Below are positions 11,609 through 24,933 of a stretch of DNA of 25,075 nucleotides, piece after piece. A program made the position numbers and the translations under genes. The DNA comes from a virus: the IMG/VR virus record IMGVR_UViG_3300045538_000441, positions 1-25,075 of that record. One strand, written 5' to 3'. The stretch's first letter is position 1. Each line of letters begins with the position of its first letter. Under the pieces are notes generated by a model. It worked only from the letters and a program-made list of their open reading frames with translations, ran no database searches and was not told the origin of the DNA.

Positions 11609-11682
11609 AGTCCCTTAACATAACGGCCGTGTGCTCGTCTCTGAAACGAGTTAAATTGGTTCGACTCCAATAGGGACTGCCA
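11609..11682 (+). tRNA. tRNA-Gln(CTG)
   Basis: Acceptor AGTCCCT/AGGGACT, G73, CCA. Anticodon arm CTCGT-CTCTGAA-ACGAG. T-arm ATTGG-TTCGACT-CCAAT. 5 nt after tRNA-Gln(TTG). Confidence 0.94.
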
Positions 11683-11683
11683 C

Positions 11684-11711
11684 TTGACAATTAAAAAAAG
11701 TGTGGTAGTAT
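11684..11711 (+). promoter_or_regulatory. Promoter, leaderless type
   Basis: TTGACA (11684-11689), 1 nt after the CCA end of tRNA-Gln; N16; TAGTAT (11706-11711), extended TGn; ATG 6 nt later. Confidence 0.85.
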
Positions 11712-11717
11712 TTACTC

Positions 11718-11882
11718 ATGTTCGCATGTTGTGAAAACTGTTACAAGAAATACCTCACCAAAGACGGAGATGTTGATTGGGAGTTGTATTTGAAACTTGA
11801 ACCTGATCACAATCAAAACGAGGAAAATTCCACCGTCTGTAAGTGTTATTGCCACCGAGTTGATCTAACCGTTTTACATTGA
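11718..11882 (+). CDS. Small Cys-rich, probable zinc-binding protein
   Basis: 54 residues beginning MFACCENCYKKYLTKDG and ending VCKCYCHRVDLTVLH. Four to seven Cys plus a His (C4, C5, C8 and C41, C43, C45, H46) form a plausible zinc knuckle. It precedes a second small Cys protein (Lar-like). Its TGA is part of the next -35 box. Specific function unknown. Confidence 0.7.
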   Translation: MFACCENCYKKYLTKDGDVDWELYLKLEPDHNQNEENSTVCKCYCHRVDLTVLH

Positions 11883-11906
11883 CATTTAAAATAAATCTGA
11901 TATAGT
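11879..11906 (+). promoter_or_regulatory. Promoter overlapping upstream stop codon
   Basis: TTGACA (11879-11884) contains the upstream TGA; N16; TATAGT (11901-11906), extended TGn; ATG 10 nt later. Confidence 0.85.
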
Positions 11907-11916
11907 TATTCTACAA

Positions 11917-12120
11917 ATGAAATTGCACGTCGAAAAATGCCCGTTCTGTGGTTGTGATGAAGTTGAGTTCCAACGTGGAACCCCTGATAGGGAAGGTGTT
12001 CCCACACAAGCAATGTGTATTGATTGTGGTGCTTCTGGTCCAGGTGTTTATGAGAAAGACGACCGTAACTTTCTGAAGGCACTTGACGCGTGGAATGAAC
12101 GTATCATCCAAAGGCGTTAA
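11917..12120 (+). CDS. Lar-like zinc-ribbon protein (restriction alleviation family)
   Basis: 67 residues with the pattern of the Lar family: CPFCG at residues 8-12, CIDCGASGP at 34-42, and a C-terminal helix ALDAWNERI. Two CxxC pairs should bind one zinc. Characterised Lar proteins relieve type I restriction by modulating EcoKI-type methylation, but many phage members are annotated by fold alone, so anti-restriction is a hypothesis. Own promoter, no SD. Confidence 0.8.
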   Translation: MKLHVEKCPFCGCDEVEFQRGTPDREGVPTQAMCIDCGASGPGVYEKDDRNFLKALDAWNERIIQRR

Positions 12121-12121
12121 T

Positions 12122-12469
12122 ATGAAATCAAGAACCATAGTATTTAGTGTTCAATATAAGATTTTGTATAAATTTGGATCATTTCTGTCGTCCTCGTTGA
12201 GTTCTGATTCTCTTGAAGGATTACGGAAATTGATGGTTAACCGGGTCGAGAGCGCCAGAAATAACGACACCGAGGCAATTTTGTTTGAACCGATTGTAAA
12301 GACGATTATCTCAAAAACTGAAGCCCGGGGGTCTTTCGTTCAATTCGTTCCAAAGTTATCTACCGGCGTTTATTACGGAGAAGAAACGGTCAGTCAAGAA
12401 TGTTACAAACCCTTCAAGCATCGTGGGTCTGGACGGCAAGGCAACTCTCTGCAAAAGAGTTTCAAGTAG
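12122..12469 (+). CDS. Hypothetical protein whose 3' end runs into tRNA-Cys
   Basis: 115 residues starting 1 nt after the Lar-like stop (TAATATG). Begins MKSRTIVFSVQYKILYKFGS; no recognised domain. The last 17 codons lie within the tRNA-Cys gene (12418-12493) and the stop TAG is in the T-arm, so the natural C-terminus may have been replaced when the tRNA arrived. Confidence 0.6.
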   Translation: MKSRTIVFSVQYKILYKFGSFLSSSLSSDSLEGLRKLMVNRVESARNNDTEAILFEPIVKTIISKTEARGSFVQFVPKLSTGVYYGEETVSQECYKPFKHRGSGRQGNSLQKSFK

Positions 12470-12493
12470 GTTCGACTCCTACACGGTGCTCCA
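12418..12493 (+). tRNA. tRNA-Cys(GCA)
   Basis: Acceptor GCATCGT/ACGGTGC, T73, CCA. Anticodon arm ACTCT-CTGCAAA-AGAGT. T-arm GTAGG-TTCGACT-CCTAC. Overlaps the upstream coding frame by 52 nt. Confidence 0.93.
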
Positions 12494-12496
12494 TTT

Positions 12497-12679
12497 ATGA
12501 AAAGAAAATATCTGCACGTTGAAATCTCCCTTGGGTCGTTACATATTTATGCCGATGACCGGCGTTGGCCAGGAGACAAGTTGGTGACTCTTGATGAAAT
12601 TGACACTGAATGTAATCTTCACGACGTTGAAGATGGTGATGTGTGTTTCACCGTTCCGATAAACGAATTTCTTAATTGA
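12497..12679 (+). CDS. Small hypothetical protein, 60 aa
   Basis: Starts 3 nt after the tRNA-Cys CCA. Acidic, begins MKRKYLHVEISLGSLHIYAD. Probably read from upstream with the tRNA, which would require RNase processing to separate the two. Its TGA (12677-12679) is in the next -35 box. Confidence 0.65.
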   Translation: MKRKYLHVEISLGSLHIYADDRRWPGDKLVTLDEIDTECNLHDVEDGDVCFTVPINEFLN

Positions 12680-12703
12680 CTTTTTATCGTTTGGTGATAG
12701 AGT
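12676..12703 (+). promoter_or_regulatory. Promoter overlapping upstream stop codon
   Basis: TTGACT (12676-12681) with the upstream TGA; N16; TAGAGT (12698-12703), extended TGn; start codon GTG 8 nt later. Confidence 0.85.
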
Positions 12704-12711
12704 TGTCCTAC

Positions 12712-12894
12712 GTGAATGACACTGTTTATAGATCGAAAAATGGAACTCGGTGGAGATTCCTCTCAGAAGGTTACGGTGGGTTCGCTGGATTCAATGAATA
12801 CGTCCGAGTGAAGGATGGACACCGACTCTACCACAGAGTAGAGGAAATGGTGGAAGAATCAGAGTGGTTGAAGAATCGTAAGACAAAGAGTTAA
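12712..12894 (+). CDS. Small hypothetical protein, GTG start
   Basis: 60 residues. GTG 12712 is chosen because it lies 8 nt after the -10, where other genes have ATG; the frame upstream of it is the promoter. Reads (M)NDTVYRSKNGTRWRFLSEGY, a small beta-rich protein with a charged helical tail. A GTG on a leaderless mRNA would be unusual; a start at the internal ATG 12718 is out of frame. Confidence 0.65.
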   Translation: MNDTVYRSKNGTRWRFLSEGYGGFAGFNEYVRVKDGHRLYHRVEEMVEESEWLKNRKTKS

Positions 12895-12895
12895 T

Positions 12896-13252
12896 ATGAA
12901 GATATACAATTACGGCGTCAACAACGGATCCGATATTCACGTCTGTCATGTAAATTGTTGTTTCCGGCATAAATCAAAGGTCGAACCAATCTCAAATATC
13001 GTAGAATCCGTGACGTCATGTATCGACGACGCCACTGAACTTTATAAACGAAAAGCTTTGGCACTGAAAGTATATTACTGGCATCTTAACTTTTGGTTAG
13101 AGTCAGAGAATATGGATGATCTTAAAAAAGATGTCAAGACTGTGGCCGACTTGCTCTTAAAAATTGATCTTGACGACGGTTCCGTGGAATTTGAATTTGA
13201 AACCATTCACAATACTATGAATATGGAGATTAGAAATGAAAGCAAACGTTGA
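12896..13252 (+). CDS. Hypothetical protein, 118 aa
   Basis: Starts 1 nt after the previous TAA. Begins MKIYNYGVNNGSDIHVCHVN with an early Cys/His cluster (HVCHVNCCFRHK, residues 15-26), then a helical acidic region. No family recognised. Overlaps the next gene by 17 nt. Confidence 0.65.
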   Translation: MKIYNYGVNNGSDIHVCHVNCCFRHKSKVEPISNIVESVTSCIDDATELYKRKALALKVYYWHLNFWLESENMDDLKKDVKTVADLLLKIDLDDGSVEFEFETIHNTMNMEIRNESKR

Positions 13253-13445
13253 AGCATGGCTACACGGTAATGAAGATGGTTGGGATGATGGTTATCATGA
13301 CCGCCCACGCCGCCCACTTAAAGACACGTTTACGTTTCCTGTGAATTGGACGGATGATGAAAAGAAAAGTTATATCCGAGGATATGACAGTGGGTTTGAT
13401 GAATCATCAAACCCTGGGTTTGATGATGAACGTTGGAACTGTTGA
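13236..13445 (+). CDS. Small acidic protein with G-x-x-x-G repeats
   Basis: 69 residues. Two similar segments, HGNEDGWDDGYHDRPRRP (10-27) and YIRGYDSGFDE (46-56), separated by DEKK. The paired Gly/Trp/Tyr pattern recalls the ribosome modulation factor group, but the match is loose. Starts inside the upstream gene, so probably translationally coupled. Confidence 0.6.
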   Translation: MKANVEAWLHGNEDGWDDGYHDRPRRPLKDTFTFPVNWTDDEKKSYIRGYDSGFDESSNPGFDDERWNC

Positions 13446-13453
13446 TTTAGATT

Positions 13454-13543
13454 GCAAGTGTTCGCTTAGTTGGCCGAAAGCACCCGGCTTTTAACCGGGA
13501 GAGTAATACTCCATCGTGGGTTCAAATCCCACCACTTGCACCA
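13454..13543 (+). tRNA. tRNA-Lys(TTT) with long variable arm, copy 2
   Basis: Perfect acceptor GCAAGTG/CACTTGC, A73, CCA. Anticodon arm CCCGG-CTTTTAA-CCGGG. 16-nt variable region with GAG-TAATA-CTC. D-arm with TTGGCCGA; T-arm GTGGG-TTCAAAT-CCCAC. Paralog of the gene at 9574. Confidence 0.9.
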
Positions 13544-13572
13544 TTCGAGTTCAAGTCTCGCCAGAGTCACCA
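13544..13572 (+). pseudogene. 3' fragment of a tRNA
   Basis: Contains CGAG-TTCAAGT-CTCG, then the acceptor 3' strand and ACCA, but no 5' half. Directly follows the CCA of tRNA-Lys, as expected for a deletion or recombination scar. Confidence 0.7.
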
Positions 13573-13577
13573 ATTTT

Positions 13578-13814
13578 ATGTGGGAAAAAATTACAAAAGA
13601 ATTAGTCTGCAATAGAGAAGGTGGCTGCACTCATATTTTTGATGAGTCTAATCTAAGGGCCAGCCTGCGCTCCTATTTGAGTGACGAAAGCAGGAGCCGA
13701 TACGGTGGTGAGAATTTCTCCACAGATAAATGCTTCATAAACGGGATACAATGGCACTTAGATGGTTTGAAGTGTTTGTTGATTTCCCTTGACGGCAAGG
13801 CCAAACAGGACTAA
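13578..13814 (+). CDS. Small hypothetical protein, 78 aa
   Basis: ATG 13578 is preferred; the longer frame would run through tRNA-Lys. Begins MWEKITKELVCNREGGCTHI with four Cys in all. No family recognised and no SD. Confidence 0.6.
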   Translation: MWEKITKELVCNREGGCTHIFDESNLRASLRSYLSDESRSRYGGENFSTDKCFINGIQWHLDGLKCLLISLDGKAKQD

Positions 13815-13936
13815 GATATTTTGGTGGGTGTGGGGAACAAAACGACGGGCGCTCCTTCGGGACTCCGTTCAGGCAGAGACAAAGCGGCGGGAGCCTTACA
13901 AAACTCTGTGCAATTTTGCGGGAGATTAGTTGAATA
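13815..13936 (+). other. GC-rich non-coding stretch, possible structured RNA
   Basis: No credible ORF. Short inverted repeats are present (CTCCTTCGGGACTCCG; GGGAG...CTCTG), and the composition is closer to an RNA gene than to the flanking coding sequence. It does not match the seven-copy element. Confidence 0.3.
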
Positions 13937-13956
13937 GTGCAATTGCACCATTTTTG
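13937..13956 (+). terminator. Possible terminator (palindrome plus T-run)
   Basis: GTGCAATTGCAC palindrome (13937-13948) followed by catttttg. The stem is short (4 bp if a 4-nt loop is allowed). Confidence 0.4.
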
Positions 13957-13987
13957 TTCTTTGACGGTTGAGATAACCAACGTAGGC

Positions 13988-14170
13988 GTGGATCAATGTC
14001 GGTTTGTTACCAGCACCACGATTACCTATAGGCTTCGTAGCCCACTACGACAGTACTCTCCGTCATGGTTTTATTTGAATGAAGACCGTGGAGGCAACAA
14101 CCTCTATGAATCAGCTGAAATGTGGTATCCGGTAAACTTCATTCATCACGGTCAATTAATTCAATGGTAG
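13988..14170 (+). CDS. Hypothetical protein ending in the D-loop of tRNA-Ile
   Basis: 60 residues if GTG 13988 is used; the frame is open to 13937. A TTGACG-N16-TAGGCG promoter-like pair (13961-13988) overlaps this GTG, so the start is uncertain. The sequence (VDQCRFVTSTTITYRLRSPL) has no known family. The stop TAG (14168-14170) is the TAG of the tRNA-Ile D-loop. Confidence 0.45.
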   Translation: MDQCRFVTSTTITYRLRSPLRQYSPSWFYLNEDRGGNNLYESAEMWYPVNFIHHGQLIQW

Positions 14171-14220
14171 AATGGAGTCTTGATAAGGCTTTCACGAAGG
14201 TTCGATTCCTTCATTGACTA
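14150..14220 (+). tRNA. tRNA-Ile(GAT)
   Basis: Acceptor GGTCAAT/ATTGACT, A73. Anticodon arm GAGTC-TTGATAA-GGCTT. T-arm GAAGG-TTCGATT-CCTTC. CCA not encoded. Confidence 0.9.
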
Positions 14221-14234
14221 CAGAAACTTCGTGG

Positions 14235-14262
14235 TTGACAATCTTATAAAAAGTGATAGAGT
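14235..14262 (+). promoter_or_regulatory. Promoter, leaderless type
   Basis: TTGACA (14235-14240), N16, TAGAGT (14257-14262), extended TGn; ATG 8 nt later. Confidence 0.85.
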
Positions 14263-14270
14263 TGTCCTAC

Positions 14271-14474
14271 ATGAGACATCCAGCTGACATTGTAAAGAAC
14301 ATCGACGAAATCCTCACCGTATTGGACGGCGCTGACCCAAAGGGTGCCAGCCTCGAAAACTACGACGCACTCCACGCCATCCGACATGTTTTAGGCCGAA
14401 AGAGTAAGTGGGAAGTCATCGGTGAAGCAACGCGATTTAAACGTCGGTTGAAGAAGAATTCGGTCACGGTATAA
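14271..14474 (+). CDS. Small hypothetical protein, 67 aa
   Basis: ATG 14271 is set by the promoter; the in-frame ATG upstream (14253) lies in the promoter spacer. Begins MRHPADIVKNIDEILTVLDG; helical, with a basic end (FKRRLKKNS). Function unknown. Confidence 0.7.
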   Translation: MRHPADIVKNIDEILTVLDGADPKGASLENYDALHAIRHVLGRKSKWEVIGEATRFKRRLKKNSVTV

Positions 14475-14489
14475 ATCAAACACAAAATT

Positions 14490-14687
14490 ATGGCACGAGA
14501 AAACATCTACGACAGTAACAGCTCACTCCGAGGTTCACTTGTCACCGAATCCAATGGTGACGTGAGGGTGTATAACAAGTATTCTCAACTGGTCGGAGTC
14601 TGGCGAGAAAGCGCTGGTAAGGCTTACGATGCCAATTCCCGCCTCATCGGTTCATCCATCGCAATGATTTATTCGCTTCTCGATTGA
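14490..14687 (+). CDS. Small beta-repeat protein (three YD-like repeats)
   Basis: 65 residues carrying three imperfect repeats: IYDSNSSLRGSL, VYNKYSQLVGVW and AYDANSRLIGSS, spaced about 20 residues apart. This resembles short YD/Gly-turn beta repeats found in other phage small proteins. Starts MARENIYDSN, 15 nt after the previous stop; no SD. Its TGA (14685-14687) lies in the next -35 box. Confidence 0.7.
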   Translation: MARENIYDSNSSLRGSLVTESNGDVRVYNKYSQLVGVWRESAGKAYDANSRLIGSSIAMIYSLLD

Positions 14688-14711
14688 CATTTTATCATTA
14701 ACTGATACAGT
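14684..14711 (+). promoter_or_regulatory. Promoter overlapping upstream stop codon
   Basis: TTGACA (14684-14689) containing the upstream TGA; N16; TACAGT (14706-14711), extended TGn; ATG 8 nt later. Confidence 0.85.
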
Positions 14712-14719
14712 TATCTCAC

Positions 14720-14932
14720 ATGAATGACCTAATTAAAGCCCTTACGATTCTCGCCAAATACAACGGTTTGGGGGAGGAATACGCTCCAACTCATTGTGAA
14801 CACGATGAACTCATCGTCAACGGCGTCGAGTGGGATGAACTATCCGACGAGGATAAGAAGGCGTTGGACGAGTTGGGATTCCACGAAGGAGAATATTATG
14901 GTGTGTCATCTTTTCGGTTTGGTAGTAATTAA
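14720..14932 (+). CDS. Small acidic protein, 70 aa
   Basis: Very acidic (DELIVNGVEWDELSDEDKKA), with the ELSDEDKKALDELGF pattern of a short helical domain. No known family. Leaderless type start. A tRNA follows 6 nt after its TAA. Confidence 0.7.
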   Translation: MNDLIKALTILAKYNGLGEEYAPTHCEHDELIVNGVEWDELSDEDKKALDELGFHEGEYYGVSSFRFGSN

Positions 14933-14938
14933 CTAATT

Positions 14939-15014
14939 GGCCCGAAGCTTAAATCTTTGTATAAGCGCCCGCCTCATAAGCGGAAGAGAGCCAGGACGAG
15001 TGCTGGTCGGGCCA
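14939..15014 (+). tRNA. tRNA-Met/Ile2(CAT)-like with aberrant D- and T-loops
   Basis: Acceptor GGCCCGA/TCGGGCC, A73. D-stem CTTA/TAAG. Anticodon arm CCGC-CTCATAA-GCGG. The D-loop (AATCTTTGTA) has no GG, and the T-arm CCAG-GACGAGTG-CTGG has no TTC. The antisense strand is also the 3' end of the endonuclease gene at 14949-15776. Confidence 0.65.
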
Positions 15015-15776
15015 ACATTTCCAACCTTTCGAGGTTAAACCCCTCAAAAGTCGTTTGTAACTTACTTTATCAAACTCCCACCATTCTTTCCGACTAAGAG
15101 TTTTTTGTTCATTTGTCTCGACATTGAACGCGGTGATAGGAGGTTTTCTAGGTTTTTGAAATTTAAGTTTGACCTCCGGACGATTTAGACACTTCAATGA
15201 AGTTTCACGTCTTCGTTCAGATGTATAATTTGATGGAGAGGTAAGTTTGTGTTTTCGTTTAGAAATACGAGAAACATATTCATGAGGAAGTTTTAGACGT
15301 TTCCCCTTATTGTAAGGAACGATTCCCTTCAGTGTCTTGCTTATCAATCGTTTAAAATGTTCCGGGTATCCAACGGACCAACCATTTTTGACATATTCAC
15401 CGACTGAGTCAGGTGATACTATAGTTCGGATTTCATTTTTAAAAATCCATTTTTTACCTTTAGTTCCATTAGTTCGTGATGTGGAACCACCTTGACCGAT
15501 TTCTTCAATCATGTTCATCCAGTCATCACTTTGAACGATGTTAAATTTGATGCTGTATTCCAATGAGATCTTACTGAATGTGGCGGTTTCGGATTCTGGA
15601 CATTTATAAAGAATTTCAGTGGTGAAATCAAATCCATGTTCTTTTAAATGGGGTTTCCAAATGAGGCCTGATCCGCAGTATTTTATCGCTTTCTTATCCG
15701 TGGTTGTCAGTTTCTTACACAGATATTTCTTACCCGTAAGATTGTGGGTTTTTATCATTAAATAAAGATACTTCAT
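14949..15776 (-). CDS. GIY-YIG/Seg-like homing endonuclease with NUMOD-type C-terminus
   Basis: 275 residues from ATG 15776. The N-terminus MKYLYLMIKTHNLTGKKYLC, then KYCGSGLIWKPHLKEHG, is the form used by a phage group of GIY-YIG-related nucleases. Later segments WIFKNEIRTIVSPDS and SKTLKGIVPYNKGKR resemble NUMOD DNA-binding repeats. The ATG overlaps the stop of a small upstream gene (ATGA). It runs antisense to the tRNA array, and its last 22 codons are the complement of the tRNA at 14939, suggesting insertion next to that tRNA. Confidence 0.75.
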   Translation of the reverse strand: MKYLYLMIKTHNLTGKKYLCKKLTTTDKKAIKYCGSGLIWKPHLKEHGFDFTTEILYKCPESETATFSKISLEYSIKFNIVQSDDWMNMIEEIGQGGSTSRTNGTKGKKWIFKNEIRTIVSPDSVGEYVKNGWSVGYPEHFKRLISKTLKGIVPYNKGKRLKLPHEYVSRISKRKHKLTSPSNYTSERRRETSLKCLNRPEVKLKFQKPRKPPITAFNVETNEQKTLSRKEWWEFDKVSYKRLLRGLTSKGWKCWPDQHSSWLSSAYEAGAYTKI

Positions 15777-15916
15777 TTGGCGTCTTTGTTTTGATAGTAT
15801 CTGTCGAGGTTCTCTTTTTTGAGACGTTCGTGATGTTTCCAATAATGTCTCATCTGACGTTCACGTCTCGCTTGACATTTTTCTTCTTCGGTGGTATATT
15901 TTTTGAATCTTCCCAT
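15773..15916 (-). CDS. Small basic helical protein preceding the endonuclease
   Basis: 47 residues: MGRFKKYTTEEEKCQARRER, then RHYWKHHERLKKENLDRYY. The W/Y-x-x-H/N-x-E-R-x-K pattern is common in DNA-binding coiled segments of mobile-element proteins. The stop overlaps the endonuclease start (ATGA), so the two are coupled; it may be a separated N-terminal domain. Confidence 0.6.
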   Translation of the reverse strand: MGRFKKYTTEEEKCQARRERQMRHYWKHHERLKKENLDRYYQNKDAK

Positions 15917-15987
15917 GTGGGAATACATAGTGTTCTACGAACTTAAAAGTTCAATAAAAGTAGAACAAGTTCTTTTAAAACAATTTA

Positions 15988-16158
15988 CCAGTGGATAGAT
16001 CCAATGCAAAACGACTAAGTCTCGGATGTGTTGGAGAATAATTAGGTTTTCTTTACTAAAAAAACTCACGGTTTTCGGTCTTGATAATTGACCGAGTTGT
16101 GGATGGTTCCCGCAATCTGTATCATCCGGAGAAGTTTTTTCCTGTGAAATCCCACTGG
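15988..16158 (+). ncRNA. Structured RNA element, copy G (longest)
   Basis: Ends CCAGTGG-AT-AGATCC / CTGTGAA-AT-C-CCACTGG: a 7-bp outer stem. Inside: AACTC...GAGTT with CGGTC-TTGATAATT-GACCG, and GGATG...CATCC. 9 nt before copy E. Confidence 0.7.
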
Positions 16159-16167
16159 ACACTTTCA

Positions 16168-16298
16168 GACGGATAGACGTGAAAGGCCCACTTACAAGTG
16201 GGATGAGTAATGGAATTGGTTGACAAGCGTTAGTAGACAAGACTGCCGCCGGCTGCGAAGGCAGAGTTTACATGAATGCATACCAGTGAAATCCCGTC
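16168..16298 (+). ncRNA. Structured RNA element, copy E (long form)
   Basis: Ends GACGG-AT-AGACGTGAAAGG / GTGAA-AT-C-CCGTC. Inside: CCCACTT/AAGTGGG hairpin, GATGAGTAA, then GGT/ACC, GCGT/ATGC, GTAGAC/GTTTAC and CTGCC/GGCAG stems topped by CGGCTGCGAA. Base pairs differ from copy D but remain paired. Confidence 0.8.
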
Positions 16299-16307
16299 GG
16301 TCTTTAT

Positions 16308-16390
16308 TGCTGCGTCGCATAGTGGCCGATTGCACTGCCCTCATAAAGCAGAATAACACATCGTCGGTTCGAATCCGACCGCAGCAACCA
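16308..16390 (+). tRNA. tRNA-Met or Ile2(CAT), 11-nt variable region
   Basis: Acceptor TGCTGCG/CGCAGCA, A73, CCA. Anticodon loop CTCATAA with stem CTGC/GCAG. Variable region AATAACACATC. D-arm GCATAGTGGCCGATTGC resembles that of tRNA-Thr(TGT) at 11134. Met versus lysidine-modified Ile cannot be told from sequence. Confidence 0.88.
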
Positions 16391-16474
16391 CACCGTTCAT
16401 CCTTTTAACATTTTCGAGATGTTTATTTGAGTCGAAGGAGAAATGATTGACAGACTCGAAACGGTGTTTATAGC

Positions 16475-16552
16475 GGGCTCGTGGTGAAACTGGATATCAT
16501 CCTTGGCCTCGAACCAAGAGTTTTGGGGGTTCAAATCCCTCCGGGCCTACCA
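16475..16552 (+). tRNA. tRNA-Arg(TCG) with C33
   Basis: Acceptor GGGCTCG/CGGGCCT, A73, CCA. D-arm GTGA/TCAT with an Arg-like loop (AACTGGATA). Anticodon arm CTTGG-CCTCGAA-CCAAG: TCG at 34-36 but C, not U, at 33. T-loop TTCAAAT. Confidence 0.85.
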
Positions 16553-16580
16553 GTTTGTGAAAGAGATGAAGGTTGGAAAA

Positions 16581-16649
16581 TAGATATTGATGTAACGGTA
16601 GCCTGGCTGCCCGTAAGCGGCTCGAGTGGTTCGACTCCACATGTTTCAT
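16581..16649 (+). pseudogene. Degenerate tRNA-Thr(CGT)-like sequence
   Basis: D-region (TGATGTAACGGTAGCCT) matches tRNA-Thr(GGT) at 16848. Anticodon stem GCTGC/GCGGC closes a 6-nt loop CCGTAA. The T-arm GTGG-TTCGACT-CCAC is good, but no 5' acceptor strand pairs with the 3' end. Confidence 0.55.
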
Positions 16650-16679
16650 TGACCAAATGTAGTAACTCAGTTCACGAGA

Positions 16680-16758
16680 ATCCGATAGATCCTATCTGGG
16701 AGGTACCCCCAGAGGAGAACAACAAAACGGCTGCATGGCGGCCGCGTGAAATCCGGAT
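16680..16758 (+). ncRNA. Structured RNA element, copy F
   Basis: Ends ATCCG-AT-AGATCC / GCGTGAA-AT-C-CGGAT. Contains the palindromic repeat CTGGGAGGTACCCCCAG as an internal hairpin and a GCTGCATGGCGGC arm. Confidence 0.65.
16696..16712. repeat. Palindromic repeat (copy 1 of 4)
   Basis: CTGGGAGGTACCCCCAG; CTGGG pairs with CCCAG. Here it forms an internal hairpin of the structured RNA copy F. Confidence 0.6.
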
Positions 16759-16768
16759 CAATTTTCTC

Positions 16769-16843
16769 TACGACGATGGTGTAGCGGTAACATAGCCGGC
16801 CAAATAATTGCCGGAGTCAGAGGTTCGAACCCTCTCGTTGTAG
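16769..16843 (+). tRNA. tRNA-like gene with a 9-nt anticodon loop
   Basis: Acceptor TACGACG/CGTTGTA, G73; D-arm GGTG...ACAT with GG; T-arm AGAGG-TTCGAAC-CCTCT canonical. The anticodon stem CCGGC/GCCGG closes a 9-nt loop CAAATAATT with no U33, so no isotype can be given. Confidence 0.65.
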
Positions 16844-16847
16844 TGAT

Positions 16848-16919
16848 GCCTCCTTGATGTTAATGGTAGCCTACTTCACCGGTAATGAAGTTGACAGAGT
16901 TCGATTCTCTGAGGAGGCT
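16848..16919 (+). tRNA. tRNA-Thr(GGT) with C33
   Basis: Acceptor GCCTCCT/AGGAGGC, T73. Anticodon arm CTTCA-CCGGTAA-TGAAG (C33). T-arm CAGAG-TTCGATT-CTCTG. CCA not encoded. Confidence 0.88.
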
Positions 16920-16930
16920 CTTTCGGAAAT

Positions 16931-17017
16931 GCCCATGTAACCGTAACTGGTAACGGCCCCGTTTCGTAAACGGGAGGAGAAATCCGCCTGCAGGTTCGAC
17001 TCCTGCCATGGGCTCCA
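16931..17017 (+). tRNA. tRNA-Thr(CGT) with long variable arm
   Basis: Acceptor GCCCATG/CATGGGC, T73, CCA. D-stem CCGT/ACGG. Anticodon arm CCCGT-TTCGTAA-ACGGG. 15-nt variable region with GGA-GAAA-TCC. T-arm GCAGG-TTCGACT-CCTGC. Confidence 0.92.
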
Positions 17018-17027
17018 GAAACAAACT

Positions 17028-17063
17028 AACCGACCAAGTATATTCACTTAGGTCGGTTTTTTT
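17028..17063 (+). terminator. Strong terminator closing the tRNA array
   Basis: AACCGACC (17028-17035) / GGTCGGTT (17051-17058), inner AGT/ACT, then a T-run to 17063. Confidence 0.93.
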
Positions 17064-17078
17064 GTGTCCATTTGCCTT

Positions 17079-17113
17079 GGGAGGGCAACCTATGGTGTTT
17101 AGATTGCCCTCCC
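17079..17113 (-). terminator. Inverted repeat closing the minus-strand block
   Basis: GGGAGGGCAA (17079-17088) / TTGCCCTCCC (17104-17113), 10-bp stem. It lacks a U-tract on the minus strand, so it may act as a transcript-end stabiliser rather than a classical terminator. Confidence 0.6.
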
Positions 17114-17164
17114 GACTTGTCGCCTCCACCACTCTGTTCTTTAACAGAGAAATTTAACCGTGAT

Positions 17165-17548
17165 TCAAGATTGATGTGAGTGACTTTCCGCCACCGCGAG
17201 GGCGTCCGTCAACCCTGTTAGATCGTGTTCGACGGTTTTGGTCTTGCTGTCAAGCACATTCTTCAAAATGGCTGAGATTGCCTGAGAGACACCAATCTTG
17301 CGGTTGAACGCGTCCTTCTTGGAACACTTCGCCACTCCAACGAAGTCCTCACCAGCTTTGCTGGTGATGAACACCTCTGTCTCACCGCCTTTACAATCCG
17401 GCTGAACGAAGTCAGGGAGAGGGCTGAGAGAACGTTCGTATTCGGTGAGCAGACACCAACGGCGATTCACGGGGTCAAAATAACGACGCCGGTGATTGAC
17501 ACGGACCTTGTGGCCAGACTTGCGGAGGGAATGAACGGTAGGAGACAT
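17165..17548 (-). CDS. Hypothetical phage protein, 127 aa
   Basis: Begins MSPTVHSLRKSGHKVRVNHR, a basic N-terminus (K/R/H at 10-22) followed by an acidic, Cys-containing middle (VQPDCKGGETEVFITSKAG) and a helical tail. No family recognised. One of three genes with a real leader: about 45 nt, A/C-rich (repeated aaat/aaac), no SD. Confidence 0.75.
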   Translation of the reverse strand: MSPTVHSLRKSGHKVRVNHRRRYFDPVNRRWCLLTEYERSLSPLPDFVQPDCKGGETEVFITSKAGEDFVGVAKCSKKDAFNRKIGVSQAISAILKNVLDSKTKTVEHDLTGLTDALAVAESHSHQS

Positions 17549-17599
17549 GGTTTATTTGTTTATTTGTTAATTGCTTACACTATTGTTTGACTTGGGATG

Positions 17600-17627
17600 A
17601 CTCTATAAGGTTATTTTAACTTGTCAA
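17600..17627 (-). promoter_or_regulatory. Promoter with real leader
   Basis: On the minus strand TTGACA (17627-17622), N16, TAGAGT (17605-17600). The start codon is about 50 nt downstream. Confidence 0.8.
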
Positions 17628-17628
17628 C

Positions 17629-17916
17629 TCACTTAACGAAATAGATTGACCGCGACTCATGCATGATTTCCAAGTCGAAGTCGGTCTTCGCGGGGCCAAA
17701 GCCAAGGAGTTTTTTATAGACTCCATCGAAGACGCCACGAGCTCCCGTCGGTGGCCCACCGATTCGTCCACTGATGGTCTGTAAAACAGCGAGTTCGTCT
17801 TCGTTGAGAACAAGGTTGAACGTCTTGACTTCTTTGAGAACGCCAGCTTTAATTGCTCGGTCGATATCAAAACGATATGTTTTTCCGTCACGTAGGATTT
17901 CAATGGTGTTTTTCAT
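17629..17916 (-). CDS. Hypothetical phage protein, 95 aa
   Basis: Begins MKNTIEILRDGKTYRFDIDR; contains LVLNEDELAVLQTISGRIGG and GVFDGVYKKLLGFG, a pattern seen in small phage proteins of unknown function. Start is 8 nt after the -10. The next promoter begins just after its stop. Confidence 0.75.
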   Translation of the reverse strand: MKNTIEILRDGKTYRFDIDRAIKAGVLKEVKTFNLVLNEDELAVLQTISGRIGGPPTGARGVFDGVYKKLLGFGPAKTDFDLEIMHESRSIYFVK

Positions 17917-17924
17917 AGGTTAAT

Positions 17925-17952
17925 ACTCTATCAGGTTATTTTAATTTGTCAA
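17925..17952 (-). promoter_or_regulatory. Promoter overlapping upstream stop codon
   Basis: TTGACA (17952-17947) contains the TGA of the upstream 37-aa gene; N16; TAGAGT (17930-17925), extended TGn; ATG 8 nt later. Confidence 0.85.
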
Positions 17953-18062
17953 TCAACGAAGAGTCCATGCTTCAGGTGTTTCGGGGTTGCCTGGATGATG
18001 TTACAGTGACGTTTGCCGGTGTAAATCACTCCGTCTTTAAGGATGGCTGCTGCGAGGATCAT
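17949..18062 (-). CDS. Very small phage protein, 37 aa
   Basis: Reads MILAAAILKDGVIYTGKRHC, then NIIQATPKHLKHGLFVD. The LKDGVIYTGKRHCNII core resembles a family of very small phage proteins. It lies 3 nt downstream of minus-strand tRNA-Leu and stops within the next -35 box. Confidence 0.7.
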   Translation of the reverse strand: MILAAAILKDGVIYTGKRHCNIIQATPKHLKHGLFVD

Positions 18063-18065
18063 AGG

Positions 18066-18141
18066 TGGTAGCTGTGGTGGGATTTGAACCCACGCTTGAT
18101 CGATTTTAAGTCGATTGCCTCTGCCGCTGGGCTACACAGCC
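18066..18141 (-). tRNA. tRNA-Leu(TAA) with a short, class I variable loop
   Basis: Acceptor GGCTGTG/CACAGCT, A73, CCA. Anticodon arm ATCGA-CTTAAAA-TCGAT gives TAA. The variable loop is CAAGC (5 nt), whereas bacterial Leu tRNAs have a long arm. T-arm GTGGG-TTCAAAT-CCCAC. Confidence 0.92.
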
Positions 18142-18151
18142 ATTGTCGGAA

Positions 18152-18484
18152 TTAAGCCCTGGGAGCGGTATCCTTCAGATACGTCTCGACATACGACTTG
18201 GCATCAGCCAAACCGAAATACTGTTCGGTGTATCCGCCCGGGAGCTGTCGTGTGGAAATAGGGAGACGTTTCTCAAGAAGGTCCTCCGCAAGCTTGCGGA
18301 CCAACTTAATCAACGCAATCTTCGAAGCCCGTTGAAGGGGGAGATTGTCGTCTTGAGCCACTGACGTTTCGGGGAGAACGATCTTGACAGCGACATCATT
18401 GTCCTCGTCCGACAGAACGTCAGACATTGCAAGAGCAAGACGCTGTTCCGCTTCGTGAACCGACATAGTGAATTGTGATTTCAT
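18152..18484 (-). CDS. Hypothetical phage protein, 110 aa
   Basis: Begins MKSQFTMSVHEAEQRLALAM and is mostly helical and acidic; no known motif. Start is 9 nt after its -10. Only 10 nt separate its stop from tRNA-Leu on the same strand, so it is probably co-transcribed with it. Confidence 0.75.
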   Translation of the reverse strand: MKSQFTMSVHEAEQRLALAMSDVLSDEDNDVAVKIVLPETSVAQDDNLPLQRASKIALIKLVRKLAEDLLEKRLPISTRQLPGGYTEQYFGLADAKSYVETYLKDTAPRA

Positions 18485-18493
18485 GTTGTTAAA

Positions 18494-18521
18494 AGAATAC
18501 CGTAGATTTAAAATAAGTCAA
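18494..18521 (-). promoter_or_regulatory. Promoter, leaderless type
   Basis: TTGACT (18521-18516), N16, TATTCT (18499-18494); ATG 9 nt later. Confidence 0.8.
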
Positions 18522-18527
18522 CTAGAA

Positions 18528-18713
18528 TCAACGGAGGTTGAAATTAGATGCCCGCCGGATTTCTTCAACCGATTCAATCCGAGAGTCATATCCAAGCTTC
18601 CGCAATTGTTCATCCGTCAACTCGGCGGTAAAGATTACGTCGGTGACATTTGCAACCACCGTGACGATTTCCGGACGGTAATTTGGTTCAGTTACTTTGA
18701 TTACGTATTTCAT
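18528..18713 (-). CDS. Small hypothetical protein, 61 aa
   Basis: Begins MKYVIKVTEPNYRPEIVTVV (beta strands) and ends with a helix (LTDEQLRKLGYDSRIESVEE). No family recognised. The palindromic repeat at 18728 sits just upstream of its start; a -10-like TATAGG is present but no -35. Confidence 0.7.
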   Translation of the reverse strand: MKYVIKVTEPNYRPEIVTVVANVTDVIFTAELTDEQLRKLGYDSRIESVEEIRRASNFNLR

Positions 18714-18727
18714 AAAATATGCCTATA

Positions 18728-18747
18728 CTGGGAGGGGGTACCCCCAG
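18728..18747. repeat. Palindromic repeat (copy 2 of 4)
   Basis: CTGGGAGGGGGTACCCCCAG between two minus-strand genes; can form a CTGGGGG/CCC(T)CCCAG-type hairpin. Confidence 0.6.
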
Positions 18748-18754
18748 ACCCACA

Positions 18755-19030
18755 TCACTTCGAAGCGATGAGACTCGGTGCCGAAGTAGCCTTCAACTCA
18801 GCAGGTAGGAACTCGTCATTGAGGTGGCCACACGCTGAACATAGAAATACAGGGATGGGCACATAAGAATCCTTCGGTGCACCGGTGAGGAGTCGTGACA
18901 CCTTGCGCATCATAACCGCTTCAGTAAAGGCGGTATTTTCACATTCATCACATTTTACCTCAGCGGTATCCTTGAGGGTGACACGGGGTTGAGACGCGGG
19001 TAGGGTATCTTGGTTAAGACTTTTAATCAT
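18755..19030 (-). CDS. Zinc-ribbon phage protein, 91 aa
   Basis: Two CxxC pairs, CDEC (27-30) and CSAC (64-67), separated by FTEAVMMRKVSRLLTGAPKD. This arrangement (KDTAEVKCDECEN...RKVSRLLTG...PIPVFLCSACGH) matches a conserved zinc-ribbon protein of large T4-like phages; function unknown. Starts in an ATGA overlap with the upstream gene. Confidence 0.8.
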   Translation of the reverse strand: MIKSLNQDTLPASQPRVTLKDTAEVKCDECENTAFTEAVMMRKVSRLLTGAPKDSYVPIPVFLCSACGHLNDEFLPAELKATSAPSLIASK

Positions 19031-19233
19031 CCTTCGATGATAACAGCACTCCGGGGAACGTCAAGTAGAAGAATACCAACGGACAATTCTATATTCACAA
19101 AAGAATCTGACTGTTGAACGACGGACAAGACGTTTCTGATGTCTCCCCGTTTATATGAGATGCAGTCAGATGCGTCGTGTTCATCAATGCAATCGACGGT
19201 CAAATCTTTCAAAAATCTCACGTTTTTAGTCAT
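19027..19233 (-). CDS. Small hypothetical protein, 68 aa
   Basis: Begins MTKNVRFLKDLTVDCIDEHD and ends VPRSAVIIEG; beta-rich. Stop overlaps the zinc-ribbon gene start (ATGA), so the two are coupled. Its own promoter is not evident; it follows the HNH gene by 16 nt. Confidence 0.7.
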   Translation of the reverse strand: MTKNVRFLKDLTVDCIDEHDASDCISYKRGDIRNVLSVVQQSDSFVNIELSVGILLLDVPRSAVIIEG

Positions 19234-19249
19234 AAAATGTCCGTTTTCG

Positions 19250-19936
19250 TTAAAGTAAAGTTTTCACTCCCTTCCTATATCGTTCACGTCTAATCAATCT
19301 TCCGTTTCCACGATTGCGCCCTTTATAGGTGGGATTCAACGTGTCACAATTAGAACACACCAACCTCAAATTGTCAACATTAGAATTGTCAGAGTCACCA
19401 TTGATATGATCGAGAATCAAAAGTATTGGCAGCTGCCCCCACTCAGTTAATCCGCACATCTCACATTTATGGCCCCGCTTGTGAATAAGATACTTCTTTA
19501 GTGTATTGTGGCTCGATTTTACTTGATATTCGCCGCTCTCGATTAACTGATACAGGGACTTGGTTGACTTTTCTCCCTGACATTTATTTGAACAAAACGA
19601 CCGCTGCCTTCCAACCTCACAGTCACAGTTCAAACAATGGTTCTTAGTTGTTTCCTTACGTCGTAGTGGATTGTTATATTTGGCAGAACAACTTGTGTCA
19701 CAGAATTTCGGATTTCCCAGATAGGGAAGAACTTCGTCACAAAACTTACATCGGTTAGGAGACTTGTTATATTCTTCTAAGTTCTTCTTACCCAGTTCTT
19801 TCTGTTGAAACGACACAGAACAACTCAGATTACAGAAGAAATTTGTGAATCCTGCTTGTGTTCTACGTTGGAACTCTGACTGGGATTTTTCAACAACTGA
19901 CTCACAGTTTTTACAAACTACTTTTACTTTATCCAT
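19250..19936 (-). CDS. HNH endonuclease with multiple N-terminal zinc fingers
   Basis: 228 residues. The N-terminal 130 residues hold three similar finger units of the form CxxC...FCxxxC (C8/C11 with FCNLSC; CKFC with FCDTSC; CLNC with FCSNKC). The C-terminal nuclease reads KCEMCGLTEWG, ILDHINGDSDNSNVDNLRLVCSNCD, an HNH core (His-Asn region) with structural Cys pairs. Likely a mobile homing endonuclease; it sits downstream of minus-strand tRNA-Thr, consistent with tRNA-linked mobility. Confidence 0.88.
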   Translation of the reverse strand: MDKVKVVCKNCESVVEKSQSEFQRRTQAGFTNFFCNLSCSVSFQQKELGKKNLEEYNKSPNRCKFCDEVLPYLGNPKFCDTSCSAKYNNPLRRKETTKNHCLNCDCEVGRQRSFCSNKCQGEKSTKSLYQLIESGEYQVKSSHNTLKKYLIHKRGHKCEMCGLTEWGQLPILLILDHINGDSDNSNVDNLRLVCSNCDTLNPTYKGRNRGNGRLIRRERYRKGVKTLL

Positions 19937-19988
19937 ATAGATAAGTATTGTGGAGCCAGACGAAAGAGTTGAAAACTTACCAGAAAAT

Positions 19989-20077
19989 TGGAGCCGAGAG
20001 AGGGAATCGAACCCCCGGTGGGGCTATTAACCCGATAGCTTACAAAGCTATTCCTGTCGCCTCTGAGGCACCTCGGC
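19989..20077 (-). tRNA. tRNA-Thr(TGT), copy 2, with long variable arm
   Basis: Acceptor GCCGAGG/TCTCGGC, T73, CCA. Anticodon arm ATAGC-TTTGTAA-GCTAT. 18-nt variable region with GGG/CCC stem. T-loop TTCGATT. Class II shape. Confidence 0.9.
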
Positions 20078-20205: not shown

Positions 20206-20908
20206 ACACCGGCTCCACCACGAACCCCGTGATGTCCTTCTTCGCTCGTCCCTTCTGAGTGAGGCCGACGATGACGTTCTTTGCGTCGGTGAAGCGGAGG
20301 TCCGTTTCGTCACCGTCAATGACCTTGTAACCCTTGAACGTCACCGGCAACGTGCCACGGAAAACCACTGCAACGTTCCCACCGGCCGCGAGAACTTCAT
20401 CAACTTCGACTTCATTCGACTCGCTACGAGAAAAGGTCAAATGGTAGTTCGACGGGAGGGTACCCCCAGTGAACTCCCGCATGCGACCGATGGACTTCGT
20501 GTAATCGTAGAACTGCACCGTCGGGAAATGTTCCATGATGTTCTTCCCATCAAGCTTCACCCGCTCCCACGGAAGGTCGCTGGTGCCGTTCAGTCGGATG
20601 CACGGAGTCTTACCTTCCTTCGTTGCCTTTTTAATCAGACGAGTGATCTCGAACGCCAACTGCTTCATCCAAACGTTCTTATTCTTGAAAAAGGCCAAAG
20701 TCTTGTTGACTCGGGCATCTTTAACGTTATCCATCGCGCCACGTCCGGCGGTGAACAGACATGCTGAACGACAACCAGCTGATGCATCTGGACAAGTGTT
20801 CGCCACTCCGGATTCATCCGAGGGCGCGAGGTATGAGATTCCGGTCAGATAACCAAACTCTGATCCCTTGACCGTCTTTGCGTTAGTGTCAATGCCGAGG
20901 ATTTCCAT
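20204..20908 (-). CDS. Gp88-like phage protein
   Basis: 234 residues. Diagnostic segments: GYLTGISYLAPSDESGVANT, CPDASAGCRSACL followed by FTAGRGAM, and CIRLNGTSDLPWE. These belong to the phage family often called gene product 88, found in mycobacteriophages and others; no established function. Four conserved Cys near residues 39-50 suggest a metal site. Start is 8 nt after a -10 (TTGATT-N16-TACAAT). Carries a palindromic repeat in frame at 20453-20469. Confidence 0.85.
   Translation of the reverse strand: MEILGIDTNAKTVKGSEFGYLTGISYLAPSDESGVANTCPDASAGCRSACLFTAGRGAMDNVKDARVNKTLAFFKNKNVWMKQLAFEITRLIKKATKEGKTPCIRLNGTSDLPWERVKLDGKNIMEHFPTVQFYDYTKSIGRMREFTGGTLPSNYHLTFSRSESNEVEVDEVLAAGGNVAVVFRGTLPVTFKGYKVIDGDETDLRFTDAKNVIVGLTQKGRAKKDITGFVVEPV
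20453..20469. repeat. Palindromic repeat (copy 4 of 4)
   Basis: CGGGAGGGTACCCCCAG inside the Gp88-like gene, coding GGTLP on the minus strand. Confidence 0.5.
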
Positions 20909-20959: not shown

Positions 20960-21340
20960 TTAAGCCGTGGCCATCGCCGCCGACTCGCTGTGCGCACATT
21001 CACGTTGAAGGTCGGCCACCACCAAGGATTCCAGCTTCTCGGCCGGGATAAGCGTCTTGACCTGTCCCCAGTAACGGTGAATTTTCTTGAAGACAAAGGT
21101 CATCTGCTTCGGGCTGAGAGTTCCACGGGTGAGATACTGACGGGTCAGACTCGTGAGAAACTCCGCGTCACATCCGCTGAAGCCCACCGAGTTGGCTTCA
21201 TGGGTGATGCCGGCGGCCTGTTCAGACAACGTCTGAAACTCGTGGATTCTAGTCAATCCTCTTAACGCCCATGCGCTGTCGGTCGACAATTTCTTCTTGA
21301 GGAAGGTTTTGATTTGTGCTTGAGTGACTTTCGATTTCAT
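20960..21340 (-). CDS. Conserved phage/plasmid protein of unknown function, 126 aa
   Basis: Begins MKSKVTQAQIKTFLKKKLST; key segments ALRGLTRIHEFQTLSEQAAG, GFSGCDAEFLTSLTRQYLT, and LSPKQMTFVFKKIHRYWGQV. This layout (Q-T-x-x-E-Q, G-F-x-G-x-D-A-E-F-L, L-S-P-K-Q) is a widespread family in phages and mobile elements with no assigned function. Its promoter lies in the 3' end of the GIY-YIG gene. Confidence 0.8.
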   Translation of the reverse strand: MKSKVTQAQIKTFLKKKLSTDSAWALRGLTRIHEFQTLSEQAAGITHEANSVGFSGCDAEFLTSLTRQYLTRGTLSPKQMTFVFKKIHRYWGQVKTLIPAEKLESLVVADLQRECAHSESAAMATA

Positions 21341-21349
21341 TGTGAAGAT

Positions 21350-21378
21350 ATGTTAAATGATTTTTACACATTTGTCAA
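21350..21378 (-). promoter_or_regulatory. Promoter inside the 3' end of the GIY-YIG gene
   Basis: TTGACA (21378-21373), 17 nt, TAACAT (21355-21350); ATG 9 nt later. Confidence 0.75.
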
Positions 21379-22165
21379 CAAGTTTCCACCCACATCTGGT
21401 TCTATGATTTTGTCCGACAGTTAAAGCCGAAATTCGACTTTTTTTGAACCCAAATTTGGTTCTGAACTCGAACGACGTGCCTACAAAAGACTCTCCGCTA
21501 AAATCATTCTTAAATTCAAAAACCGTGCGATTGAAATTTGGACTATCTTTTCCGCACAATTTCCTTGCTCCCAGTCTAATAATTGACATTCGTTTCCGTT
21601 CAAGTGGGTCAAGAAACCTTTGTTTAGCTATGTCAGACAATTTTTTCTTTACGTCCGGACGATTCATTGAAATTTTCAAAGAATCTTTCATTTTTTGTTT
21701 ACTTTCCGGATGAAGTTCTCCACCAGATGCCTCAAAGTTGAGGTTGTAACATTTATCCATTTCCGATCTTGCGACATCCAAATATCTTTGTTCTGTTGCG
21801 AATAATTCCTTTCCATCCGGAACTATTTCTAAAATTACAAATTCAAACGAATCTTTTCCATATTTGTTCCATGCCCGTTGAAGTTTGACGTTTCCATGTT
21901 TATTTGGTTGAAGTCTTCTTACGTGACGTTTCCAACGAGAAGTTCTTCCTTGAGTTATATTCTTTGAACTTCCAACGTAATACTTTCCGTCAACTTTGTT
22001 TATTATCTTGTAAATTCCGCTTACTTTCCCGATACCGTTCCATTCGCCGTAGGCAAACTTCCTCCCGATTATGTTCGTAATATTTTCTTGACTTTTTTCG
22101 ATTGTTGTTTCGAATTTCTTCGTCGGAATAATATTTTCTTTTTCTTCCCATAAATTATCTTTCAT
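21353..22165 (-). CDS. GIY-YIG homing endonuclease
   Basis: 270 residues. The nuclease core begins GIYKIINKVDGKYYVGSS (about 49-66), then RWKRHVRRLQ (catalytic Arg region), LQRAWNKYGKDSFEFVIL, and EQRYLD with the conserved Glu. The C-terminal half carries NUMOD-type helical repeats (ESKQKMKDSLKIS) and a helix-turn-helix-like end (EFRTKFGFKKSRISALTVG). AT-rich. Inserted directly upstream of a conserved phage gene whose promoter now lies in the endonuclease coding sequence, so the junction is well adapted. Confidence 0.9.
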   Translation of the reverse strand: MKDNLWEEKENIIPTKKFETTIEKSQENITNIIGRKFAYGEWNGIGKVSGIYKIINKVDGKYYVGSSKNITQGRTSRWKRHVRRLQPNKHGNVKLQRAWNKYGKDSFEFVILEIVPDGKELFATEQRYLDVARSEMDKCYNLNFEASGGELHPESKQKMKDSLKISMNRPDVKKKLSDIAKQRFLDPLERKRMSIIRLGARKLCGKDSPNFNRTVFEFKNDFSGESFVGTSFEFRTKFGFKKSRISALTVGQNHRTRCGWKLVDKCVKII

Positions 22166-22219
22166 GTCAATAAGTATTTACGTAAGAACATAAAAGTGAG
22201 AACATTTTAATCTTTTTTA

Positions 22220-22328
22220 GATAACGCTAAAGGTATTTGCGCATTCTCTGGTACCCTATCCTCGGCGCCTTTTGGGTCTGCCGGATCGTCCTTTAAGTGT
22301 CGGACACCACTTTCACTTACAAGGACAG
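22220..22328. ncRNA. Second structured RNA family, copy 1
   Basis: Shares with copy 2 GATAACG(C/A)TAAAG, TGCGC, CTCGG(C/T)G and AC(A/G)AGGACAG. Stem GGTA/TACC here corresponds to GTGA/TCAC there. TAAAGG can pair with CCTTTA downstream. Sense strand is not certain; described as plus. Confidence 0.55.
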
Positions 22329-22357
22329 TTTACTGTAAATTTAAAAAAACTCAAGCC

Positions 22358-22657
22358 CTATTTGACGAATTCGGCCGGAATCGGCTCACCGTAGACTTTG
22401 TTGCGGAACTCGGCCAAATCCTTGGCGGATTCGTAGTTGGTCGCCTTCACCAACAGTTCAGCGTCCGCCGTAGGGAGGATGATGTAACGGTAGCCCTCGG
22501 TGTCGCCCAACACTTCATTGGTCCGCTTGTGGCGAGAATACATCTCGTGGCAGCTGTCGTGCGTGCCCGTGGTGAGAATGGTCGCCGTCTCTTTGACTCC
22601 GAGGCCGGGGAGATGATAAAACTCAACGAGTGATTCGGTGTTAGATACGTTGTTCAT
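22358..22657 (-). CDS. Hypothetical phage protein, 99 aa
   Basis: Begins MNNVSNTESLVEFYHLPGLG; contains HDSCHEMYSRHK and a regular C-terminal helix. No family recognised. Start is 9 nt after an extended -10 (TGATAATCT, 22672-22667) with a weak -35 (TTGTGT). Confidence 0.75.
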   Translation of the reverse strand: MNNVSNTESLVEFYHLPGLGVKETATILTTGTHDSCHEMYSRHKRTNEVLGDTEGYRYIILPTADAELLVKATNYESAKDLAEFRNKVYGEPIPAEFVK

Positions 22658-22707
22658 TGTGAAAATAGATTATCATTCATTTTCCCGAAACACAAGACTT
22701 ATTTTAA

Positions 22708-22810
22708 GATAACGATAAAGTGATGTGCGCTCCCCGTGGTCACAAATTCTCGGTGTTCGATCACCTCACAGGCAGTTATCGTCTGCCGCCGACGTTCGTT
22801 ACGAGGACAG
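22708..22810. ncRNA. Second structured RNA family, copy 2
   Basis: GATAACGATAAAG, then GTGA-TGTGCGC...GTGG-TCAC, CTCGGTG, a GGCAG/CTGCC hairpin whose loop (TTATCGT) is complementary to the 5' ACGATAA (possible pseudoknot), and ACGAGGACAG. Lies between divergent genes, so it could serve either strand. Confidence 0.55.
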
Positions 22811-22871
22811 ACTACCACTCACATATAAAAAGTCAAAGGTAATTCTCAGAAAAGATTTTTTAACATCACCG

Positions 22872-22899
22872 TTGACATTTGATAACAAACTGATATTCT
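22872..22899 (+). promoter_or_regulatory. Promoter, leaderless type
   Basis: TTGACA (22872-22877), N16, TATTCT (22894-22899), extended TGn; ATG 9 nt later. Confidence 0.85.
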
Positions 22900-22908
22900 A
22901 TTTCCACA

Positions 22909-23172
22909 ATGAACAACGTCACTAACTACGCTTCCTTCGCCGAATGGCACAACCTCAACTACGGTTCCGCTTACCGGACGCCGTCCTTCGACGCCATCGT
23001 GCGTGACATGAAATTCCTCGACCGCCAGTTTGATGAAACGGTTGGTCGCTTCTTCTACTTCACCGGTCAGTTTCACGCCACTCCCAACGTCCGGGTCGAC
23101 TTGACTTGGGAGGAAGTGGCGATGCGTTACGACAACATGTATTCTAATTTTTCTCGGTATGGGACGAATTAA
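22909..23172 (+). CDS. Hypothetical phage protein, 87 aa
   Basis: Begins MNNVTNYASFAEWHNLNYGS; aromatic-rich, with DLTWEEVAMRYDNMYSNFSR at the end. No family recognised. The next promoter starts 4 nt after its TAA. Confidence 0.75.
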   Translation: MNNVTNYASFAEWHNLNYGSAYRTPSFDAIVRDMKFLDRQFDETVGRFFYFTGQFHATPNVRVDLTWEEVAMRYDNMYSNFSRYGTN

Positions 23173-24561: not shown

Positions 24562-24933
24562 ATGAAAACTTACACCGTAAAAGTTGATAACAACGGAGAC
24601 AAGTGTTGGTATCTCAACGGCAAACTGCACCGTGAAGATGGACCTGCCATTGAATATGCCAACGGAGACAAGTATTGGTATCTCAACGGCAAACGTCACC
24701 GTGAAGATGGACCTGCGGTTGAATCCAACGGAAGCAAGTTTTGGTATCTCAACAACAAACTGCACCGTGAAGATGGACCTGCGGTTGAATATACCGACGG
24801 ATACAAGGAATGGTGGATCAACGACAAACTTGTGACCGAACAGGATGTGCTTAATTCTTCACAAACTATTGAGATTGAGGGAGTTAAGTATTCGATTGCA
24901 CAAATCAAGGCCGCGTTGAAGAAAGTGGCTTGA
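24562..24933 (+). CDS. MORN-like WYLNGKLHREDGPA repeat protein
   Basis: 123 residues with three clear and one weaker repeat of the form (K)xWYLNGKxHREDGPAxE, about 21-22 residues apart (residues 15-80), then a divergent WWINDKLVTE unit and a C-terminal helix (GVKYSIAQIKAALKKVA). Such repeats occur in phage proteins as beta-hairpin arrays similar to MORN repeats; they probably mediate protein contact. The repeats are also close at the DNA level (63-66-bp units), indicating recent expansion. Confidence 0.85.
   Translation: MKTYTVKVDNNGDKCWYLNGKLHREDGPAIEYANGDKYWYLNGKRHREDGPAVESNGSKFWYLNNKLHREDGPAVEYTDGYKEWWINDKLVTEQDVLNSSQTIEIEGVKYSIAQIKAALKKVA

Follow-up and report, generated by a model that had tools for sequence, protein, structure and literature searches.

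Paralogous small structured RNAs with their own predicted promoters: a candidate noncoding RNA family in environmental phages

To our knowledge, multi-copy families of small RNAs with a common fold have rarely been described in phages. Phage T4 carries rnaC and rnaD, the genes of the species 1 and 2 stable RNAs (139 and 119 nt), which neighbour a cluster of tRNA genes and the GIY-YIG gene segB, and the role of such extra stable RNAs in tRNA-rich phages is an old question. In phage HK022, the putL and putR elements (about 70 nt long, two per genome) are located downstream of the early promoters (PMC9378689), and the Racr RNA anti-CRISPRs are solitary repeat units that mimic CRISPR repeats (PMC10651486).

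The DNA analysed here (the window) is the whole 25,075-nt stretch of a 25 kb IMG/VR virus record (IMGVR_UViG_3300045538_000441). It holds about 30 tRNA genes, forming an unusually large cluster over 13 kb (6896-20077) in which one gene has no called anticodon and a Tyr gene has the anticodon ATA. Two small structured RNAs are predicted in it: copy A (22220-22320), with a predicted 5' end at 22320 (GUAAGUG) and a 3' end near 22220 (CGUUAUC), and copy B (22708-22802), with a predicted 5' end at 22802 (GUAACGA) and a 3' end near 22708. Both copies end at the 3' side in CUUUANCGUUAUC and begin at the predicted start site of their own promoter. That two similar segments exist at these places, as an earlier note on this DNA had claimed, is confirmed by the alignment and by blastn against a small database (62.7% identity over 142 nt, E 1e-5), and the segments are homologous. 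The similarity is not due to chance, since copy B is kept nearly letter-identical in a related phage (L012, 9184-9283) despite diverged flanks, and the 5' domain of copy A reappears in a distant phage carrying an A-type relative (L143). Exact GATAACGNTAAAG occurs three times in the window, one of them a chance match within the GP88 gene; GATAACGTTAAAG at 20719-20731, also inside the GP88 gene, was discounted.

The RNA strand of both copies is the minus strand. The earlier note had read the segments the wrong way round, missing this strand and the promoters of both copies; the AGGACAG block that it had listed as conserved lies largely in the stretch that separates the -10 box from the start, given that promoter spacing places the start at GUAA. 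The plus-strand reading and single-sequence folding of both strands were uninformative (z-scores about -1 to 0.4), folding energy alone being no better than that of shuffled sequence.

The promoters of the copies follow a sigma-70-like consensus, TTGAST-N16-TANNCT. For copy A (22327-22354, minus strand), TTGAGT (22354-22349) is separated by a 16-nt spacer from TAAACT (22332-22327), in a layout that recurs in relatives; for copy B (22809-22836, minus strand), TTGACT (22836-22831) is separated by the same spacing from TAGTCT (22814-22809). A generic consensus scan omits both promoters because their -10 boxes are imperfect, and their support comes from an anchored comparison across all copies, in which an upstream promoter is present in 20 of 29 copies, against 7% of random positions. 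Similar promoter-like repeats precede other genes of the window. Transcription would start about 7 nt past the -10 box, at GUAA (22320 in A and 22802 in B), so that the first transcribed nucleotide would also open the conserved structure. No intrinsic terminator was found after either window copy, so the 3' ends are predicted ones and read-through is possible. Additionally, a 49-nt inverted repeat (22627-22675 and 22891-22939, 80% complementary) is formed where the divergent genes flanking copy B begin, covering part of the promoter, the leader and the first codons (MNNV...), which implies that these two genes share a start cassette.

Relatives were sought by several routes. Motif scans combined with neighbouring proteins gave 8 copies in five phages, and model R1 detected a 103 kb contig that carries six of them. 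Relatives of the protein encoded at 20960-21340 led to 17 loci, after which models R1 and R2 raised the count to 31 copies, spread over 14 phage contigs that each carry 1-6 of them (the longest is 251 kb). The training set of R2 comprises 24 of these 31 copies, and R1 itself includes the two window copies, which it scores at 83.6 bits (copy A, match 22212-22320) and 107 bits (copy B). One member of the count is weak (G013, E 0.011), and a truncated copy in G001 was left out. A truncated copy of about 55 nt, lacking P2 (the hairpin described below), lies beside a full copy in IMGVR_UViG_3300046092_000154 (L139, 1400-1520). The search of Rfam and phage genomes that the earlier note had suggested yields relatives in other phages and no Rfam match over the element: Rfam 15 models at E≤5 gave nothing over it in the window, where the only matches were tRNA and a sub-threshold Plastid-ycf2, and only tRNA in 17 relatives at E≤1. 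Judged from these comparisons, the RNA family is previously uncatalogued.

Several searches outside this set gave no further members. With E≤1e-4 and strict filters, none of the 793 bacterial genomes searched, drawn from two phyla (398 and 395, the phyla of Providencia and Mucilaginibacter), has a match, and searching half of XacN1 and the T4 tRNA region directly likewise gave none. Model searches of 12 named phages produced zero first-look candidates, a zero that may reflect the tool, and BLAST of a phage collection with the elements returned only short, AT-rich or unrelated matches. Seven matches of the first motif scan (L002-L007 and L009) are one recurrent unrelated sequence, apparently protein-coding; most other motif-scan matches have neither promoter nor core, and all 13 of those in genome contigs look like chance.

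The copies (about 60-115 nt) share a common anatomy. Their two ends pair in a helix (P1) that encloses the P2 hairpin and a core of near-invariant sequence (AGRRURGGGNACC), together with an H-type pseudoknot that some copies lack and a short helix (P3) present in the closest relatives. In copy B, P1 (22709-22802, minus strand) pairs 22802-22796 (GUAACGA) with 22715-22709 (UCGUUAU). The conserved CUUUANCGUUAUC thus pairs with the RNA's own 5' end, in place of the long-range helix of the earlier note (TAAAGG/CCTTTA versus ACGATAA/TTATCGT), which is broken by L042, where GAAAAC stands for the GATAAC of copy B. The summed energy of P1 with its true partners is -110, compared with -85 ± 7 for swapped partners (1/2000, with the relatedness of the copies remaining in the test) and -75 ± 7 for shuffled 5' ends. 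P2 (GGUG-AUCGAA-CACC at 22752-22765 in copy B, minus strand) lies directly before the core in 21 of 24 copies, with a summed score of 212 against 67 ± 20 in shuffles; moving the anchor by one base still gives 137, and bigger shifts give at most 67. Its stems covary freely (GAC/GUC, GGC/GCC, GGU/ACC, GUCG/CGAC, GACG/CGUC, GGAG/CUCC and GGG/CCC, with AGC/GCU and others seen by eye), and its loops vary in length. The stem for which the earlier note had proposed a change on both sides corresponds to P3 and is borne out, GUGA/UCAC in copy B (22720-22743, minus strand) being replaced by GGUA/UACC in copy A.

The pseudoknot sits between P1 and P2 in the longer copies (n=9), eight of which lie at ≤0.035 of shuffles. 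In copy B (22771-22794, minus strand), S1 is CGUC/GACG (22794-22791 with 22783-22780) and S2 is GGCA/UGCC (22787-22784 with 22774-22771). Elsewhere S1 appears as CGAC/GUCG (L043), AAGUG/CACUU (copy A) or AGUG/CACU, and S2 as GUCC/GGAC (copy A) or GGC/GCC. For the whole model in four close relatives, 97.8% of cells pair, with two-sided changes at 3 pairs and at 0 in slid controls. As MAFFT aligns the pseudoknot and P2 of long and short forms out of register, anchored scripts were used instead of column counts, and the shuffle controls leave the relatedness of the copies in place. Taken with that dependence, the comparative evidence backs P1, P2, P3 and the pseudoknot as the predicted fold.

Copy A is followed by a GIY-YIG endonuclease gene (21353-22165, minus strand), and both are missing from the sister phage L012, in which B is present; most relatives have no adjoining endonuclease. 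Copy B is followed by a gene for a 99-aa protein without known family (22358-22657, minus strand), preceded by its own promoter-like sequence, TTGTGT-N17-TAATCT. Such a sequence before the next gene is common to the window-like group (B, L042 and L043; TTGAGT and TAATCT in L042), and most co-oriented relatives have TTGACA or TTGACT promoters there; the gene after copy A has no evident one. According to ORF-based gene calls, three copies (G004_8065, G015_4172 and G016_228325) have a convergent gene about 50-130 nt past the element, two (G016_232219 and G015_594) face convergent small ORFs, and the region downstream of one copy is free of ORFs over about 1.1 kb. In L017, a stretch of about 1.1 kb downstream of two tandem copies (1000-2150) contains no ORF of at least 41 aa on the RNA strand and holds repeated GTTAGGCTAGACTAATAATACGAGGTTGAACTGAAAAT units and GGTGGTACCCCCC palindromes. 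G004 and G007 carry two tandem copies, each with a separate promoter, and the GP88 homolog of G004 is preceded by an A-type copy. When the next gene is co-oriented, it often begins at a fairly constant distance of 46-65 nt past the element, and certain genes recur in this position, namely GP88-like genes and homologs of the gene at 20960-21340 (directly after the RNA in at least 8 contigs). The latter (minus strand) encodes a 126-aa function-unassigned protein found in 17 phage loci, with weak relatives in Xanthomonas, Stenotrophomonas and Pseudomonas phages. Elsewhere in the window, the ORF at 24562-24933 contains a short tandem repeat (three copies, 66-69 nt spacing) with a KxWYLNGKxHREDGPA-type unit.

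What the elements do has to be weighed against this genomic context. That part of the earlier note which saw a structured or regulatory RNA stands, with homologs found and no Rfam overlap. The riboswitch-like leader that it considered fares worse: a cis-acting leader of the following gene would draw on the recurring downstream genes and on the constant 46-65 nt spacing, which keeps this reading alive, but it should share one transcript with the regulated gene, and what is seen is a promoter-like sequence that separates the element from the gene in the window-like group, differing and in several cases convergent genes downstream, gene-free stretches, separate promoters for tandem copies and no expression-platform terminator, leaving it quite improbable. 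Own promoters of the next genes, convergent or absent genes, tandem copies and the presence of B without A in L012 indicate that the element behaves as its own gene; an own promoter and a gene-independent position are what a stand-alone phage small RNA would show, and each copy looks like a separate transcription unit rather than the leader of one particular gene.

The same arrangement bears on a put-like role, in which the structure opening an early transcript would bind its own polymerase and make it resist pausing or termination downstream, in cis. The start-of-transcript position and the reuse of the structure behind more than one promoter in a phage are as in HK022 putL/putR (PMC9378689), the genes downstream are often co-oriented, and the element sits directly downstream of a promoter-like sequence, which would have to be an early one. 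However, the co-oriented genes that would need antitermination are lacking in several copies: at the three with a convergent gene and at the one gene-free for more than 1 kb, antitermination would serve no sense transcript, and elsewhere the next gene mostly has its own promoter-like sequence; we regard this role as unlikely. A small self-cleaving ribozyme would agree with the compact fold, the strongly conserved core between P2 and P1, the optional pseudoknot and the many copies per genome, but no Rfam ribozyme model matches over the element and the predicted start at its 5' edge leaves no 5' leader to remove, and we give this reading very little credence. Finally, the joint absence of copy A and the GIY-YIG gene from L012 could suggest that the element works as DNA and not as RNA, being a duplicated promoter region or a site of insertion or homing, against which stand the helices that change on both sides, the variable hairpin loops, the conserved position relative to the promoter and the general lack of an adjoining endonuclease; it is the least credible of these readings, and we consider it barely plausible.

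The reading we favour, with somewhat more confidence than doubt, is that copies A and B are paralogous minus-strand noncoding small RNA genes of a new multi-copy phage family, probably acting in trans. Transcription of each copy would probably rely on an RNA polymerase of the host type, acting at the copy's own sigma-70-like promoter and beginning at the first nucleotide of the structure (with the exact ends being predictions). Pairing of the 5' end with the 3' motif in P1 would close the molecule, which would then enclose the optional pseudoknot, the P2 hairpin and the core. Action in trans is the most economical explanation of independent promoters, paralogs and an invariant core; this core may be bound by a common partner, probably a host or phage protein, and the paralogs may owe different roles to their differing 5' domains. 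A bolder proposal, which we find doubtful, is that these RNAs represent a widespread unseen family, with as many as six paralogs in a genome, in which the 5' domain (with or without a pseudoknot) can be exchanged while the core stays invariant, and which would serve as decoys or guides directed at host machinery (for instance a defence system, the RNA polymerase or the translation apparatus).

Models R1 and R2 allow annotators to seek the family elsewhere, and a covarying family beside tRNA genes in environmental phages, with no Rfam entry, gives the old question of the extra stable RNAs something concrete to work on. Rfam 15 families are likewise compact structured RNAs, with none matching over the element in the window and 17 relatives. 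Racr RNAs are also small phage RNAs with their own promoter (PMC10651486), but they mimic CRISPR repeats, and no repeat-like unit was noticed in the present RNAs in an unsystematic look. The HK022 put elements share with them a short, structured form, a place directly after a phage promoter and more than one copy per phage (PMC9378689); compared by description, put consists of two long stem-loops acting in cis, whereas the present RNAs have a closed P1 fold, an optional pseudoknot and an invariant core, and often face convergent genes. A search with R2 over T4 70000-73500, which addresses similarity to the present family's model only, returned nothing; T4 rnaC and rnaD lie directly against a tRNA gene, one of them ends in tRNA-like GGGTTCGAATCCC, and the family core is not visible in them. 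In position, they are nevertheless the nearest analogue of the family described here.
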